Shown here one piece after another: positions 1-7,523 of a DNA stretch of 7,531 nucleotides. Origin of the DNA: Prolixibacteraceae bacterium (GTDB lineage: Bacteria > Bacteroidota > Bacteroidia > Bacteroidales > Prolixibacteraceae); contig WRIQ01000045.1 of assembly GCA_009782655.1 (NCBI GenBank), positions 1-7,531 on the forward strand. The letters are read 5' to 3'. The position numbers and the translations under genes are program-made. Position 1 is the first letter of the stretch, and the number at the start of each line of letters is the position of its first letter. The notes under the pieces are model-generated. The model ran no database searches. It saw nothing but the letters and a program-made list of their open reading frames with translations, and was not told where the DNA came from.

Positions 1-456
1 GGCGTCTAAACTGAACATGAGGTCGAATACATTTTCCTGCGTTTCCTCCGGATTGCAGTTGGGCTTATCCACTTTGTTGACCACCACAACGGGCTTCAGT
101 CCCAATTCAAGCGCTTTTTGCAACACATAGCGGGTTTGCGGCATGGGCCCTTCAAAAGCATCGACAATCAGCAGGACGCCGTCGGCCATGTTGAGTACGC
201 GCTCCACTTCGCCGCCGAAATCGGAGTGACCCGGAGTATCTATCACATTTATTTTTACATTTTTATATCGAACCGACACATTTTTGGATAAAATGGTGAT
301 GCCCCGTTCACGCTCTAAATCGTTATTATCGAGAATAAGTTCCTGAACCGCCTGATTATCGCGAAAAAGTTTGACCTGATGCAAAATACGATCTACAAGC
401 GTGGTTTTTCCATGGTCTACATGGGCTATGACTGCTACATTTCTGATTTCTTCCAT
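1..456 (-). CDS. typA: TypA/BipA ribosome-associated translational GTPase (N-terminal part, cut by window edge)
   Basis: This is the first 152 codons of a TypA/BipA-type GTPase, read right to left from the ATG at 456; the rest lies beyond position 1. TypA binds the 70S ribosome, helps 50S assembly and is needed under cold and other stress. The G domain shows G1 AHVDHGKT (residues 11-18), the switch I motif RGITI (51-55), G3 DTPGH (73-77) and G4 NKVD (127-130). The stretch FGGEVERV (80-87) and GPMPQTR (103-109) are typical of TypA and separate it from EF-G, LepA and EF-Tu. The start is set by the usual short lead MEEIRN before the first beta strand. No Shine-Dalgarno is present, as usual in this phylum. 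It is transcribed away from the CE15/GH20 unit. EF-Tu-like, TypA and LepA families share the fold, but the local motifs make TypA nearly certain. Confidence 0.96.
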
Positions 457-746: not shown

Positions 747-2018
747 ATGAAAAACGCCGTTTCGATATTGATTCTGTTACTGTTATGTGGAAGCGTTTCC
801 TCTCAGAAAGATAACATTTCCGCCGCCAAAGGTGCGTCGGTTTCATATCAGCTCCCCGATGTGTTTAAAGCGCCCGGCGGTAAGGCCATTGCCAAAAATC
901 ACAAAAAATGGGAGAAAAAAGTGCGGCCAACAACGTTGGCGCTTTTCGAAGAACAGGTTTACGGCAAAATTCCCAAAGGGCTGATAATGACTTCTTTCAG
1001 GATTATGGAAGAAAGCGACGCCACGCCTTATGCAAACTGCACACGCCGTCAGGTGGAAATGCTGTTCGAAAAAAACGGGAAAACCCTACGGGCAGAAATG
1101 CTGATGTATCTCCCTAAACGTGAGGAAAAAACGCCGATATTCATCGGGTACAATTTCTTCGGAAACCACACTACGACCACCGATCCGGAGGTTTTCATCA
1201 GCGAATCGTGGTCGCGCAACAATGCGTCGTTTGGCATTGCCAACAATCAGTTGAGCGAAAAAAACCGCGGCGTGCGCGTCAACCGTTGGCCGATTGAGGA
1301 GATTCTGAAAAGCGGCTTCGGGTTGGCCACCATTTATTACGGCGATATCGACCCCGACGACGACGATTTTTCCAATGGCGTTCATCCTCTGCTTTATGCC
1401 GAAGGGCAGACTGCTCCACGGAATAATGAATGGGGCGCCATCTCAGCATGGGCGTGGGCTCTGTGTTGCGCCATGGACTACATGGAAACCGATCCGAATG
1501 TTGACGCCGGAAAAGTTATCGTCATGGGCCATTCGCGTTTGGGAAAAGTTGCATTGTGGGCGGGAGCCCTCGACCAGCGGTTTGCCATGGTTATCTCCAA
1601 CGAATCGGGCTGTGGCGGTGCCGCGCTCTCGCGACGGAGAGAAGGCGAAACCGTAGAAGCAATTAACACGTCGTTTCCACATTGGTTTTGCACAAATTTC
1701 AAAGCATACAACAATAATGAAGATTCGCTTCCTGTCGATCAGCATCAGTTGATAGCAATGATAGCGCCGCGTCCTGTGTATATTGCCAGCGCTCAGGAGG
1801 ATCTGTGGGCAGATCCCTTTGGCGAATATCTGTCGGGGTACCATGCATCGCCGGTTTACAAGTTGTTCGGGAAAATCGGTTTGACATCCGCGGACATGCC
1901 ACCGGTCAACACACCGATTATGAACCAAATCGGCTATCATATACGCACCGGCGTACACGACATCACGCTCTACGACTGGCAACAATTTATACGCTTTGCC
2001 GATTATCATTTTAAGTAA
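747..2018 (+). CDS. Secreted CE15 glucuronoyl esterase-type alpha/beta hydrolase
   Basis: A 423-residue protein of carbohydrate esterase family 15. Known members cut the ester between 4-O-methyl-glucuronic acid on xylan and lignin alcohols. Residues 1-20 form a signal peptide (short basic start, ILILLLL core, likely cut near SVSSQ); the Cys at 14 lacks a good lipobox, so export to the periplasm is more likely than lipidation. Family blocks are GYNFFGNHT (134-142), the nucleophile motif GHSRLGK with Ser263, NESGCGG with candidate acid Glu286, a second acid candidate Asp352 in AQEDLWADP, and candidate catalytic His404 in GVHDIT followed by DW. Length fits bacterial members. Residues 203-207 are an acidic run. 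The start is the only one that gives a signal peptide. The GH20-type gene follows 22 bases on, probably co-transcribed. Family is clear; the true substrate is not shown, since bacterial CE15 enzymes vary. Confidence 0.92.
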   Translation: MKNAVSILILLLLCGSVSSQKDNISAAKGASVSYQLPDVFKAPGGKAIAKNHKKWEKKVRPTTLALFEEQVYGKIPKGLIMTSFRIMEESDATPYANCTRRQVEMLFEKNGKTLRAEMLMYLPKREEKTPIFIGYNFFGNHTTTTDPEVFISESWSRNNASFGIANNQLSEKNRGVRVNRWPIEEILKSGFGLATIYYGDIDPDDDDFSNGVHPLLYAEGQTAPRNNEWGAISAWAWALCCAMDYMETDPNVDAGKVIVMGHSRLGKVALWAGALDQRFAMVISNESGCGGAALSRRREGETVEAINTSFPHWFCTNFKAYNNNEDSLPVDQHQLIAMIAPRPVYIASAQEDLWADPFGEYLSGYHASPVYKLFGKIGLTSADMPPVNTPIMNQIGYHIRTGVHDITLYDWQQFIRFADYHFK

Positions 2019-2040: not shown

Positions 2041-3111
2041 ATGAATAAGAAAATCATTTTGTTTTTTGTCATTCTGATGACGACGCTTGCAGTTGCAGGG
2101 CAACAGCCTTTCAAGGTAAAAGGATTATGCGTGGCAGCGCCAGCCAAACCAGAAGTCAACGAATTTGTTTCGCTGATTCACGAGAAGTTGTATCCTGTCG
2201 GTGTTAACACGCTGATTTTGCGCGTCGATTACGGATATGAATACGAATCGCATCCCGAGTTGCGCAACGGAAATCCCCTGTCGAAAGCCGATGTAAAGAA
2301 ACTTGTCGAGGCTTGCAAAGCGCGGAATATACGGTTGATACCACAAATCAACCTGTTGGGACACCAGTCGTGGGCGTCGAATGTGGGCAAACTGCTTGAA
2401 GTTTATCCCGAATTTGACGAAACACCGAATGTGAAGCTGCCCGAAAAATATGAGTGGCCCAACCCTGACGGGCTTTATTGCAAAAGCTACTGCCCGCAAC
2501 ATCCCGACTTGCACAAGATTGTCTTTGAGCTTGTTGACGAAATTACCGCAGCTTTCGAAGCCGACGCTTTTCATGCCGGTATGGATGAAGTTTTTTACAT
2601 CGGTCACGACCAGTGCAAGCGATGCCGCGGCAACGACCCTGCGGTGCTTTTTGCCGGCGAAGTAACCAAAATACGCAACCACTTAGCGCTCTCTAACAAG
2701 GAATTTTGGATATGGGGCGACCGCCTCATCGACGGAAAAACAACCGGAATAGGCCTGTGGGAAGGAAGCTACAACAACACCCACCAAGCCATCAACCTGA
2801 TTCCCCGCGATGTGGTGATCTGCGACTGGCACTACGAAAAAGCGCACCCTACCCCTTTCCTGTTCGCGTCGAAAGGCTACAACGTGGTTGCCTGCCCGTG
2901 GAATGTGAGTCAAGTAGCTGTTGATCAGGTTGAAATGATGAAAATGCTCCGCAAAAACGCTTCCGGCGAAATGCGCGAGCGTTACGCAGGAATCGTCCAC
3001 ACATATTGGAGCGGCGCCAAAGGATTTATCGACGGCATGTTCGAAAAAACCGAACGCGGTAAAAACGACCCTTCGGTGCAAACCTTCAAAGAGCTTGTGA
3101 AAATCTGGTAA
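2041..3111 (+). CDS. Secreted single-domain GH20-type glycoside hydrolase (beta-N-acetylhexosaminidase-like)
   Basis: A 356-residue protein with a glycoside hydrolase family 20-like TIM barrel. Residues 1-20 are a signal peptide (MNKK, then a hydrophobic core, cut near AVAG before QQ). The family's catalytic pair appears in HAGMDE (178-183), with Asp182 as the substrate-assisting residue and Glu183 as the acid/base by family analogy. Tryptophans at 224, 263, 287 and 323 could line the sugar site. The protein starts the barrel almost at once and lacks both the usual GH20b N-terminal domain and C-terminal modules, so it is shorter than classical hexosaminidases. Cysteines 147, 151, 192 and 195 form C-x3-C and C-x2-C pairs flanking the active-site strand. 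The ATG at 2041 was chosen over an in-frame one at 1996, because the latter overlaps the esterase gene and would bury the signal peptide. Hexosaminidase activity is plausible, not proven; the substrate could differ. Confidence 0.82.
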   Translation: MNKKIILFFVILMTTLAVAGQQPFKVKGLCVAAPAKPEVNEFVSLIHEKLYPVGVNTLILRVDYGYEYESHPELRNGNPLSKADVKKLVEACKARNIRLIPQINLLGHQSWASNVGKLLEVYPEFDETPNVKLPEKYEWPNPDGLYCKSYCPQHPDLHKIVFELVDEITAAFEADAFHAGMDEVFYIGHDQCKRCRGNDPAVLFAGEVTKIRNHLALSNKEFWIWGDRLIDGKTTGIGLWEGSYNNTHQAINLIPRDVVICDWHYEKAHPTPFLFASKGYNVVACPWNVSQVAVDQVEMMKMLRKNASGEMRERYAGIVHTYWSGAKGFIDGMFEKTERGKNDPSVQTFKELVKIW

Positions 3112-4195: not shown

Positions 4196-5146
4196 ATGGG
4201 AATATTCGGTTTTTTCAATAAAGAGAGAAAAGAAGACCTCAACAAAGGTCTCGAAAAAACACGTGAGAGCGTTTTTTCAAAACTCAGCAGGGCGATTGTC
4301 GGCAAGTCGAAAGTGGACGACGAAGTACTTGATAATCTGGAAGAAGTGTTGGTAACTTCCGATGTAGGCGTGGAAACCACGCTGAAGATCATCGACAGGA
4401 TTGAAAAACGCGTGTCGCACGATAAGTACTTGGCAACAAACGAACTAAATCGAATATTGCGCGAGGAGATTGCAGCACTTCTGGAAGAGAACAATTCGGG
4501 CGAAGCATCCGATTTCGAACTCGCAGGGAAACCGCAGCCTTACGTTATCATGGTTGTGGGCGTAAACGGCGTGGGCAAAACCACCACCATTGGCAAGCTG
4601 GCGTGGAATTTCAAACAAGCCGGTAAATCGGTGATTTTGGGTGCCGCAGATACATTCAGGGCTGCTGCCATCGAACAACTGCAAATCTGGGCCAACCGCG
4701 TTGACGTACCCATTGTGAAGCAGAAAATGGGCTCCGACCCAGCTTCCGTAGCTTTCGACACGCTGAACTCGGCAAAATCGTCGGGCGCCGATGTGGTGAT
4801 CATTGACACCGCCGGGCGACTACATAACAAAATCAACCTGATGAACGAATTGTCGAAAATAAAAAAGGTGATGCAGAAGGTGATTCCCGACGCGCCCCAC
4901 GAAGTACTGCTGGTACTCGACGGCTCAACGGGACAAAATGCGTTTGAGCAGGCCAAACAGTTTACAAAAGCCACCGACGTTTCGGCAATAGCGCTGACAA
5001 AATTGGACGGAACGGCCAAAGGCGGCGTGGTTATCGGCATCTCCGATCAGTTCAAAATTCCGGTGAAGTATATCGGCATCGGAGAAAAAATGACAGACCT
5101 GCAGATTTTCGACCGCAAAGAATTTGTGGACTCGCTGTTTCAGTAG
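4196..5146 (+). CDS. ftsY: Signal recognition particle receptor FtsY
   Basis: A 316-residue SRP GTPase that docks the SRP-ribosome complex at the inner membrane so that membrane proteins are inserted by SecYEG. The N domain (about residues 10-95) is helical, with the typical segment LEEVLVTSDVGVETT. The G domain shows the P-loop GVNGVGKTT (122-130), DTFRAAA (152-158), DTAGR (204-208), TKLDG (268-272) and the closing GIGEKMTDLQIF (294-305). The GVNG..KTT and LVTSDVG forms point to FtsY rather than Ffh, and no Met-rich M domain follows. The long acidic A domain of the E. coli protein is missing; instead a short start, MGIFGFFNKERKEDL, could serve as the membrane-binding amphipathic helix. This is normal for the phylum. 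The stop at 5146 faces the convergent dnaX gene across a 71-base gap. Confidence 0.97.
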   Translation: MGIFGFFNKERKEDLNKGLEKTRESVFSKLSRAIVGKSKVDDEVLDNLEEVLVTSDVGVETTLKIIDRIEKRVSHDKYLATNELNRILREEIAALLEENNSGEASDFELAGKPQPYVIMVVGVNGVGKTTTIGKLAWNFKQAGKSVILGAADTFRAAAIEQLQIWANRVDVPIVKQKMGSDPASVAFDTLNSAKSSGADVVIIDTAGRLHNKINLMNELSKIKKVMQKVIPDAPHEVLLVLDGSTGQNAFEQAKQFTKATDVSAIALTKLDGTAKGGVVIGISDQFKIPVKYIGIGEKMTDLQIFDRKEFVDSLFQ

Positions 5147-5217: not shown

Positions 5218-5817
5218 TCAATCATCAAAATCCAGCATGAAACGTTGTTTCAGCAAAGCGATCTTGGGATTTTTCTTCAACATATCTTCATACTTTTCGT
5301 CGTCGGTATAAACCAACTTCACCTCTTCCACTTCAACAATTTCCACTGTCAGGTCAATGGCCGAATTGTTGAGTTCGCGCCGTAGCCAAGAAACGATTTG
5401 CGGCTTGATTCCTTTGACCTGTTCTTCCTGAACGGGACTGTCGACTTTCAGCATCAGCATGTTATCCTGTACCAATGTAGGGAAATTGGCGAGCGCCGAT
5501 TTCAGGTTTGGCCTGTTGTCGAGGGTGGCGGTAAAGGTCGCCCATTTTTCGTGAAATTGCGCTTCGGTAAACGACTCGCTCAACTCTTTTTTGTTATACA
5601 ATTCAAATTGATCCTGCACGGAAACGTTTCCGCCGGGCAATGTTTCCCCTGCCAGCATCGACTTCAGCGACGGCCCTGCAATATCGCTGGTGAGTTTTTT
5701 CAGCGCCGGTTTCGACGGTTCGTCATGATGAATTTTATCGCCTTGCGCGACGCTTTGCTGCATTGGCGGCGCATCGCTGAAAATGGGTTCCAGCAGCAGA
5801 GGGGAGCCGTCAGCTAT
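5218..5817 (-). CDS. dnaX: DnaX tau-specific C-terminal region, read in the -1 frame
   Basis: This frame adds 199 residues to DnaX if the ribosome or polymerase slips at the A-run at 5817-5826, giving a tau of about 566 residues. The frame is open from 5874 down to TGA at 5218-5220. It begins IADGSPLLLEP after the shift, followed by a low-complexity linker, then a globular end from about FTEAQFHEKWATF to KQRFMLDFDD. This end has the pattern of the DnaX C-terminal domain of Bacteroidetes (WLRRELNN, then a conserved NPKIALLKQRF tail). By analogy tau links the clamp loader to the polymerase III alpha subunit and the DnaB helicase. The first ATG in this frame is at 5763 and would yield 181 residues, but nothing suggests it is a real start: it lies mid-linker with no promoter. 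Separate translation remains a weaker option. Confidence 0.85.
   Translation of the reverse strand: MADGSPLLLEPIFSDAPPMQQSVAQGDKIHHDEPSKPALKKLTSDIAGPSLKSMLAGETLPGGNVSVQDQFELYNKKELSESFTEAQFHEKWATFTATLDNRPNLKSALANFPTLVQDNMLMLKVDSPVQEEQVKGIKPQIVSWLRRELNNSAIDLTVEIVEVEEVKLVYTDDEKYEDMLKKNPKIALLKQRFMLDFDD
5786..5808 (-). other. Possible frameshift-stimulating stem-loop in dnaX mRNA
   Basis: In the minus-strand RNA, GGCTCC (5808-5803) can pair with GGAACC (5791-5786) with one C-A mismatch, around an 11-base loop. It begins 8 bases after the A-run. GCTGA (5814-5810) with TCAGC (5780-5776) could extend it. The place suits a -1 frameshift stimulator, but the stem is short and imperfect. Confidence 0.3.
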
Positions 5818-6917
5818 TTTTTTTTTAAGGTCAACTGGGCAATTCTGACTAAAGCAAGTTCTACGGAGAGCCTTTTATTCTGACTTGTTTTGTATTGATA
5901 GTCGCATTCGTTGCTAATGCGCAGCGCTTCGAGCAAAAAATCGGGCAGACAGCCGGCGGCTTGCGTTTTGTAACGCTCGCGAATGTCGCCGCCCACTTCG
6001 AGCAATTGAACCGTAACGGCATCGCGGCTAACCAACAAATCGCGGAAATGGCCTGTCAACCCGTTGATAAAATGCTGCCCATCAAAACCTTTGTTTAATA
6101 CTTCGTTGAAAACGACCAGCGTTTCAGGAACATTATTACAGAGAAACAGATCGACAAGCTTGAAATAATATTCATAGTCAAGCACATTCAAGTTGGCAAT
6201 TACATCTTTGTAAGTAATCTCCTTGCCGCAGAAACTCACTATTTGGTCGAAAATGGAAAGCGCATCGCGCAGAGCGCCATCGGCTTTATTGGCAATTACG
6301 TTCAGTGCGCTTTTTTCGGCTTTGATGCCTTCCTGCGAAGCCACATAATCAAGATGATTTTCGATGTCGGCAACTTTGATGCGGTTGAAGTCGAAAATCT
6401 GGCAGCGCGAGAGAATGGTCGGTATGATTTTATGTTTTTCCGTTGTTGCCAGAATAAACAGAGCGTGGCGCGGCGGCTCTTCGAGGGTTTTCAGAAAAGC
6501 GTTGAAAGCCTGCGACGATAACATATGAACCTCGTCGATAATATAAACGCTGTATTGCCCGATTTGCGGCGGAATGCGCACTTTGTCGATCAGGTCGCGA
6601 ATGTCGTCAACCGAGTTGTTGGAGGCCGCATCCAATTCATGGATATTATAACTCCGGTTTTGGTTGAAAGCTACACACGATTCGCATTCGTTGCAGGCCT
6701 CGGTCTCCGAACTGAGATTGAAACAGTTGATGGTTTTGGCGAAAATGCGCGCACAAGTGGTTTTTCCCACGCCTCGCGGGCCGCAGAAAAGGTAAGAATG
6801 TGCCAACTGCCCCGTCTTGATGGCGTTTTTCAATGTTGCCGTAATGGAATCCTGCGCCACAACGCTGCGAAACGATTCCGGACGATATTTTCGTGCTGAA
6901 ACAATAAAATTCTCCAT
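5814..6917 (-). CDS. dnaX: DNA polymerase III clamp loader subunit gamma/tau, zero-frame (gamma-like) product
   Basis: A 367-residue AAA+ ATPase that opens and loads the sliding clamp. The P-loop is GPRGVGKTT (46-54); the zinc module has Cys65, Cys75, Cys78 and Cys81; Walker B is YIIDEVH (125-131); sensor 1 is LATTE (156-160); the SRC arginine-finger motif is 170-172; sensor 2 is GALRDALS (214-221). Residues from about 240 to 360 form the collar-type domain III, closing with LALVRIAQL. The frame then reads LTLKKK and stops at TAG, exactly where gamma forms end in other bacteria. So the zero frame alone gives a complete loader subunit, and the missing tau part lies in the -1 frame just downstream. 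The ATG at 6917 gives the usual start, MENFIVSARKYRPESF. A perfect -7 promoter box lies 24 bases upstream. A homopolymer read error cannot be excluded. Confidence 0.95.
   Translation of the reverse strand: MENFIVSARKYRPESFRSVVAQDSITATLKNAIKTGQLAHSYLFCGPRGVGKTTCARIFAKTINCFNLSSETEACNECESCVAFNQNRSYNIHELDAASNNSVDDIRDLIDKVRIPPQIGQYSVYIIDEVHMLSSQAFNAFLKTLEEPPRHALFILATTEKHKIIPTILSRCQIFDFNRIKVADIENHLDYVASQEGIKAEKSALNVIANKADGALRDALSIFDQIVSFCGKEITYKDVIANLNVLDYEYYFKLVDLFLCNNVPETLVVFNEVLNKGFDGQHFINGLTGHFRDLLVSRDAVTVQLLEVGGDIRERYKTQAAGCLPDFLLEALRISNECDYQYKTSQNKRLSVELALVRIAQLTLKKK
5817..5826 (-). other. A10 slippery run with adjacent TAG (dnaX frameshift site)
   Basis: On the minus strand the gene reads TTA AAA AAA AAA TAG in the gamma frame. 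Ten A allow A-AAA-AAA tandem slippage by one base back, or addition of one A during transcription; both lead to ATA GCT GAC in the tau frame. The two frames overlap only between 5874 and 5814, and this is the only slippery sequence there. E. coli uses A-AAA-AAG and Thermus a run of A in the same gene. Confidence 0.75.
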
Positions 6918-7268: not shown

Positions 7269-7523
7269 ATGGCATTAAAATGCGGAATTGTAGGATTACC
7301 CAATGTGGGCAAGTCAACATTGTTTAATTGTTTGTCGAGTGCGCGGGCACAGTCGGCCAACTTTCCATTTTGCACCATCGAACCCAACGTGGGCATCATC
7401 ACCGTTCCCGACGAGCGACTCATAAAACTGTCGGAAATTGATAAACCGGCGCGGGTAATTCCCACAACAGTGGAGATTGTGGATATAGCAGGTCTTGTCA
7501 AAGGCGCTTCGAAAGGAGAATGA
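7269..7523 (+). CDS. ychF: YchF/OLA1-type ribosome-binding ATPase, N-terminal part with an in-frame TGA
   Basis: The first 84 residues of YchF, an Obg-related P-loop protein that prefers ATP, binds ribosomes and is linked to stress responses. Seen are G1 GLPNVGKST (9-17), the family block [14 protein letters not shown] (29-42), PDERL (47-51) and G3 [13 protein letters not shown] (72-84). The family continues GLGN after this; here the codon for that glycine is TGA (7521-7523) where GGA is expected, and the next codons CTT GGC still read Leu-Gly in the same frame. This is a single G-to-T change, not a frameshift. It lies 8 bases from the window end, so a read-end error is likely, a true nonsense mutation possible. 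The ATG at 7269 matches homologues (MALKCGIVG); an in-frame ATG at 7239 overlaps the promoter box and adds residues foreign to the family. Confidence 0.93.

Follow-up and report, generated by a model that had tools for sequence, protein, structure and literature searches.

A dnaX gene split at a run of ten A's in a Prolixibacteraceae bacterium, and the probable programmed production of gamma and tau in the Bacteroidia

The window analyzed here is the whole 7,531-nucleotide stretch of contig WRIQ01000045.1 from a Prolixibacteraceae bacterium, and it carries on its minus strand a dnaX gene that is divided between two reading frames. The zero frame encodes a gamma-like protein of 367 amino acids and closes with ACC TTA AAA AAA AAA TAG (protein end LTLKKK), and the region corresponding to the C terminus of tau follows in the −1 frame. 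The positions of these parts and of the neighboring genes, four of them housekeeping genes, are collected in Table 1.

Table 1. Features of the window, and the loci at which dnaX carries an in-frame TAG element
Feature	Position	Strand	Basis
dnaX zero frame: AAA+ ATPase, DnaX lid and domain III	5814..6917	−	ORF reading, Pfam, homologue lengths
A10 run, putative slippage site (T10 on the plus strand)	5817..5826	−	sequence; A9–A13 here in 194/309 loci
Zero-frame TAG, gamma end	5814..5816	−	TAG directly after the A-run in 55/71 family loci
tau C-terminal region, −1 frame; 199 codons follow the run, then the stop	5218..5817	−	frame reading, Maribellus alignment, dN/dS
Start of a translational GTPase	1..456	−	
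Glucuronyl esterase, adjoining the next gene	747..2018	+	Pfam
Glycosyl hydrolase family 20	2043..3111	+	Pfam
Ribosomal protein L28	3476..3718	+	
FtsY-like SRP GTPase	4196..5146	+	
Housekeeping neighbor, presumably YchF	7269..7523	+	
TAG-element loci			L072, L075, L243–L254, L258–L260, L262–L264, L266, L268–L270, L272–L276, L298

The initial annotation described the zero frame as domains I–III of the clamp loader subunit with a TAG straight after the A10, and the protein matches agree with this description. The ATPase and the DnaX lid pass the Pfam cut-off, and domain III of gamma/tau (PF12169) is matched at residues 243–362 with an E-value of 1.9e-4, which is below Pfam's own cut-off. The TAG sits just past this match, in line with the claim that it falls at the natural end of gamma. 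The −1 frame is open from 16 codons upstream of the run, in keeping with the reported frame overlap of about 60 bases, and continues to the stop that ends the tau region. A Pfam search with the 199 residues of this part gave no match; they align with residues 368–580 of a one-frame Maribellus DnaX at 37% identity (E 8e-42), which bears out their assignment to tau. One extra A in the run leads to a tau of 566 amino acids (367 + 199), so that the two product lengths first proposed hold as computed from the sequence. Counting from the first codon of the run, the zero and −1 frames both stop within five codons. RNA folding 3′ of the run has a z-score of +0.54.

The same arrangement recurs in relatives of the window, whose family we judged from named members to be the Prolixibacteraceae. 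In a protein search with the 367-residue DnaX, 118 of the best 120 of 7996 scored candidates are 366–399 amino acids long, and exactly 367 is the length of 96 of the best 120 homologues listed. Two Maribellus entries among these 120 have 579 and 580 residues. The names among the listed homologues include Draconibacterium, Mariniphaga, Sunxiuqinia, and Prolixibacteraceae, and the closest locus on a genome contig, 77% identical, is from a Sunxiuqinia MAG (Prolixibacteraceae). A dnaX match was obtained in 111 of the 120 genomes of the window's family group, and 71 family loci were read (L001 with 30 returned and 40 hand-picked out of the other 81). The gene is split in 68 of the 71 (62 with A10, 5 with A11, 1 with A9), and in 51 the split occurs at A10 with an immediate TAG. 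The other three, L084, L094, and L165, are continuous, each with A11 and then TAG in one open frame. Because these continuous loci hold A11 at the same place, one more A would exchange a gene with gamma as the standard product for one with tau as the standard product, gamma then arising by slippage. The initial annotation would have counted a genomic A11 (or A8), or relatives with one uninterrupted frame and no A-run at this place, against programmed production. The comparison of relatives that it called for supports the split; one-frame A11 relatives do exist, and their retention of the run and of the stops close to it suggests one and the same device in reversed polarity. That rule is therefore too strict.

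We extended the comparison to 309 loci from which copies had been removed and which were sampled by similarity and by hand, many of them from draft or metagenome genomes. To the 80 top-scoring of at least 594 candidates we added the window and another 70 loci of its family. A draw from the phylum, with matches in 385 of 395 genomes, supplied 29 returned loci and 60 picked by hand, and a gut family with matches in 97 of 101 genomes supplied another 69 (30 returned and 40 picked). About 30 of the 40 gut-family picks were chosen for an interrupted-looking frame, and hand-picking in L202–L221 favored short frames, so that shares among these loci are not frequencies. Loci above an author-set cut of 53% identity, 269 of the 309, are called Bacteroidia-like.

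A run of 9–13 A's at nucleotides 1000–1350 of dnaX is found in 194 of the 309 loci. It is carried by 192 of the 269 Bacteroidia-like loci, in all three codon phases, and by 2 of the 40 more distant ones. Lengths are narrowly distributed: 153 runs are A10, 20 are A9, 18 are A11, two are A12, and one is A13, with no A8 at the site among the 194 runs. Elsewhere in the same loci, intergenic sequence included, only 48 A or T runs of at least nine occur in 1,204,628 nucleotides, and the run at this site exceeds chance. Seven GC-rich loci (56–62% GC) retain A9–A10. Of the Bacteroidia-like loci with the run, 122 are split and need +1, 2 are split and need −1, 66 are continuous, and 2 are unclear; the remainder comprise 38 continuous loci that lack a run, 30 carrying the TAG element described below, and 9 others. 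The device is thus not universal in the Bacteroidia, as the 38 continuous loci without a run attest. In the set that is free of hand-picking (L001–L080), the run is present in 58 of 80 loci, of which 41 are continuous, 14 are split and require +1, one is split and requires −1, and 2 are unclear. Every codon phase is met in both the split and the continuous layout. For the N-terminal part, a tree built with FastTree, the one method used, requires at least 19 changes between split and continuous, at least 25 changes of phase, and at least 12 gains or losses of the run.

Several individual loci depart from these layouts. Only in L050 and L209 does a split gene call for −1 (or +2) rather than +1, in both cases at A10. 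In L043, L286, and L261 the gene is broken near the junction (stops at codons 383, 376, and 382, respectively) with no long A-run and with tau in another frame; these single cases are candidates for assembly error or other recoding. At about codon 381 of L300 the zero frame ends in TAA, a strong hairpin follows (GGCCGGGTGAGACCACCCGGCC; 80 nucleotides of this region fold at −31.8 kcal/mol), and tau lies in the −1 frame. A hairpin-stimulated −1 shift is possible in this one case.

The frames around the run bear marks of selection. In 67 continuous genes with the run, the distance to the first stop averages 1.6 codons in the +1 frame and 6.2 in the −1 frame. Randomly chosen places of these genes give 16.7 and 17.0, and none of 5000 permutations, uncorrected for kinship, gave values as low as those at the run. 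As exceptions to this pattern, a frame stays open for more than 12 codons in a few continuous genes (−1 in 4 of 68, +1 in 1 of 68). In the 122 split genes a stop falls within 12 codons in the zero frame of all 122 and in the −1 frame of 120. The frame that encodes tau, hereafter ORF2, has a dN/dS of 0.04–0.28 for 12 of the 13 pairs of relatives compared, with the 13th pair saturated and several dS values above 1, and is under purifying selection.

From these sequence comparisons we consider it likely that the dnaX of the window gives rise to two proteins through RNA-polymerase slippage on the A10. Programmed production of gamma and tau at the A-run, which the initial annotation had put forward, is strongly supported by the comparison, and the predicted arrangement is the one it proposed, with the standard frame yielding gamma and the product with one more A yielding tau. 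Transcripts with ten A's would be translated up to the TAG to yield gamma, and transcripts lengthened by one A, or altered in length by any amount equivalent to +1 modulo 3, would be read on into the tau region and yield tau. Those in the other register would also terminate within a few codons. Both products presumably work in the clamp loader. We infer both that slippage occurs and that it acts at the level of transcription. Across the class, the run would serve in both polarities, and its templated length would decide whether tau or gamma is the standard product. Passages in the literature on bacterial slippage treat bacterial runs of 9 A as slippage-prone.

The same two products could arise at another level, by ribosomal −1 frameshifting on A_AAA_AAA in a faithful mRNA, with the shift giving tau. 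The heptamer is contained in the run in every phase, and 122 of the 124 classified splits require a change in the direction that ribosomal −1 shifting would supply. This one-sided direction counts against slippage, which must favor the insertion of one A if it is to account for it, and one-sidedness is a criterion for a ribosomal mechanism in the part of Antonov et al. (2013; PMC3711429) that treats such genes. A ribosomal shift, however, needs only about seven bases, as the accounts of the E. coli heptamer have it, yet no A8 is found and 153 of the 194 runs are A10. The run is kept through the flips of polarity, and excess structure 3′ of it is absent: against mononucleotide shuffles, 30 of the 122 split genes have a mean z of −0.46 (controls −0.24) and 30 of the 68 continuous genes a z of −0.21 (controls 0.00). 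A run of at least nine A's in any phase and either polarity, guarded by stops and lacking excess 3′ structure, favors RNA-polymerase slippage over ribosomal shifting, which we regard as unlikely.

Far less probable is independent translation of the tau part through re-initiation downstream of the TAG. ORF2 of the window does have an ATG 17 codons in, but the first ATG of ORF2 is scattered from codon 5 to codon 204 across 72 family genes and is absent in 2; with no start codon common to relatives, separate translation was rejected. DNA-level phase variation, in which run length would differ between cells and switch tau on and off, has relatives one A apart (A10 and A11) in its favor and next to no probability overall, given how narrowly the length is held around A10 and how unlikely on general grounds it is that a replicase subunit would be switched on and off. 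An assembly or read error in the homopolymer, A10 being error-prone under some sequencing methods, was rejected because relatives share the split, some of them on multi-Mb contigs, and most of the best homologues listed are short, which upholds the initial view that this is no random error, and a pseudogene is just as improbable given the purifying selection on ORF2.

Loci from the gut and rumen appear to present a different solution. In L072 and L075 there is no run; a TAG stands in frame at the gamma/tau junction, and tau continues in the same frame. Such a TAG element is present in 29 of the 70 gut-family loci read, or 30 genes with L072, all of them without the A-run (Table 1). Directly after the in-frame TAG these 30 genes share the conserved sequence TAGATWGCNAGR, although the loci were collected with the pattern TAGAT[TA]GC[ACGT]AG and part of the conservation reflects this choice. 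In a tree of the N-terminal part, the TAG loci group into one clade whose only other member is L261, so that the pattern is present in 30 of 31 members; L261 holds an altered copy of the element in another frame. Under strict filters, a sequence model of the element finds it beside dnaX in 30 of 101 gut-family genomes (29 and that of L261), with three weak hits elsewhere (E 0.015–0.09). The best 120 listed homologues of the first 366 residues of L075 are all short, at 348–426 amino acids.

The choice of codons after the TAG is skewed. All 30 genes use ATT or ATA for Ile there, codons that make up 38% of Ile codons across these genes; 26 of the 30 use GCA for Ala, which has a 14% share of Ala codons; and all 30 use AGA or AGG for Arg, which together account for 5% of Arg codons. 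This pattern points to a constraint on RNA rather than on protein. The codon preceding the TAG is variable. The best stem in nucleotides 9–34 after the TAG has 3–5 pairs; its mean of 4.07 exceeds the 3.14 of shuffled sequences and was reached in none of 300 shuffles, and a gapped alignment of the element shows a 4-bp stem. Folding energy after the TAG is not in excess (z −0.12 over 42 nucleotides; −0.56 over 60 nucleotides, controls −0.44), and RNAalifold found no pair in the ungapped alignment, hence the element model uses sequence only; for these two reasons a structure after the TAG is weakly supported. A search with 7 of the 30 loci matched no known RNA family at the element.

The simplest reading of this element is candidate programmed UAG readthrough. 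The post-TAG regions have a dN/dS of 0.10–0.41 in 12 pairs, and there is no ATG common to those of the clade. Ribosome bypass, or re-initiation at the ATT or ATA codon, may instead be at work. TAG serves as the normal stop of tau in 3 of the 30 clade genes. Genome-wide reassignment of TAG is not supported in the sole genome examined, G608, where TAG ends 21 of 106 ORFs of at least 150 amino acids in 160 kb; among its 43 ARAGORN tRNA matches there is no CTA anticodon, and no Ile tRNA either, in keeping with an incomplete genome. The literature searched contained no report of a readthrough element at a dnaX TAG. If confirmed, the clade would provide a case of readthrough in a bacterial cellular gene with a defined RNA signal.

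Taken together, we lean toward the view that selection in the Bacteroidia persistently favors the making of both gamma and tau, and that this demand is met at a single spot in dnaX by interchangeable decoding devices. One would be slippage of RNA polymerase on about ten A's, with either polarity and repeated flips; the other, in one gut and rumen clade of Bacteroidales, would be programmed readthrough of the UAG with a dnaX-bound RNA element that joins UAGAUWGCNAGR to a short stem on its 3′ side. The retention of a mutation-prone run across at least 25 changes of phase and at least 19 of polarity suggests that both forms are widely selected. The importance of gamma in E. coli was long a matter of dispute (PMC5009743, section 21), and the TAG clade is a natural experiment on the need for both forms. 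Many DnaX database entries represent only the gamma part, as do 118 of 120 listed homologues of the window protein and 120 of 120 of L075.

The window is a case of an already known kind of dnaX, the two-ORF gene with a poly-A run. The dnaX passages of Antonov et al. (2013; PMC3711429) describe 17 such genes in 12 genera, nine of them with ten A's, and propose slippage. In common with these, the window has two adjacent, overlapping ORFs that differ by −1 at the DNA level, ten A's that are conserved in the family (its splits have A9–A11), and a predicted need for recoding to reach tau. Those passages name only Chlorobi, whereas the loci considered here number 309 and include polarity flips; the underlying gene list may include Bacteroidetes. 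What the present comparison adds is the breadth of the device and the repeated flips, and we found no account of a class-wide dnaX run with flipping polarity in the literature searched.

In E. coli, as far as the cited descriptions extend, the same gene gives the same pair of products by a ribosomal −1 frameshift on A_AAA_AAG, with a Shine–Dalgarno-like element on the 5′ side and a hairpin on the 3′ side as stimulators and with tau in the zero frame. In the window, by contrast, gamma occupies the zero frame and a 3′ stem-loop signal is absent. Thermus thermophilus dnaX slips on A9 (Larsen 2000, via PMC1088944 and PMC5009743), and its gamma and tau are described as arising from mRNAs of different length. 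Section 21 of the 2016 review (PMC5009743) repeats the reversed arrangement and places Thermus tau in one ORF with stops near in both other frames. The window shares with Thermus a run of at least nine A's and close stops in the frames that do not encode tau, but its gene is split, and its zero frame is gamma where that of Thermus is tau. It is the continuous genes, at 66 Bacteroidia-like loci with the run, that match Thermus in having tau in one ORF.
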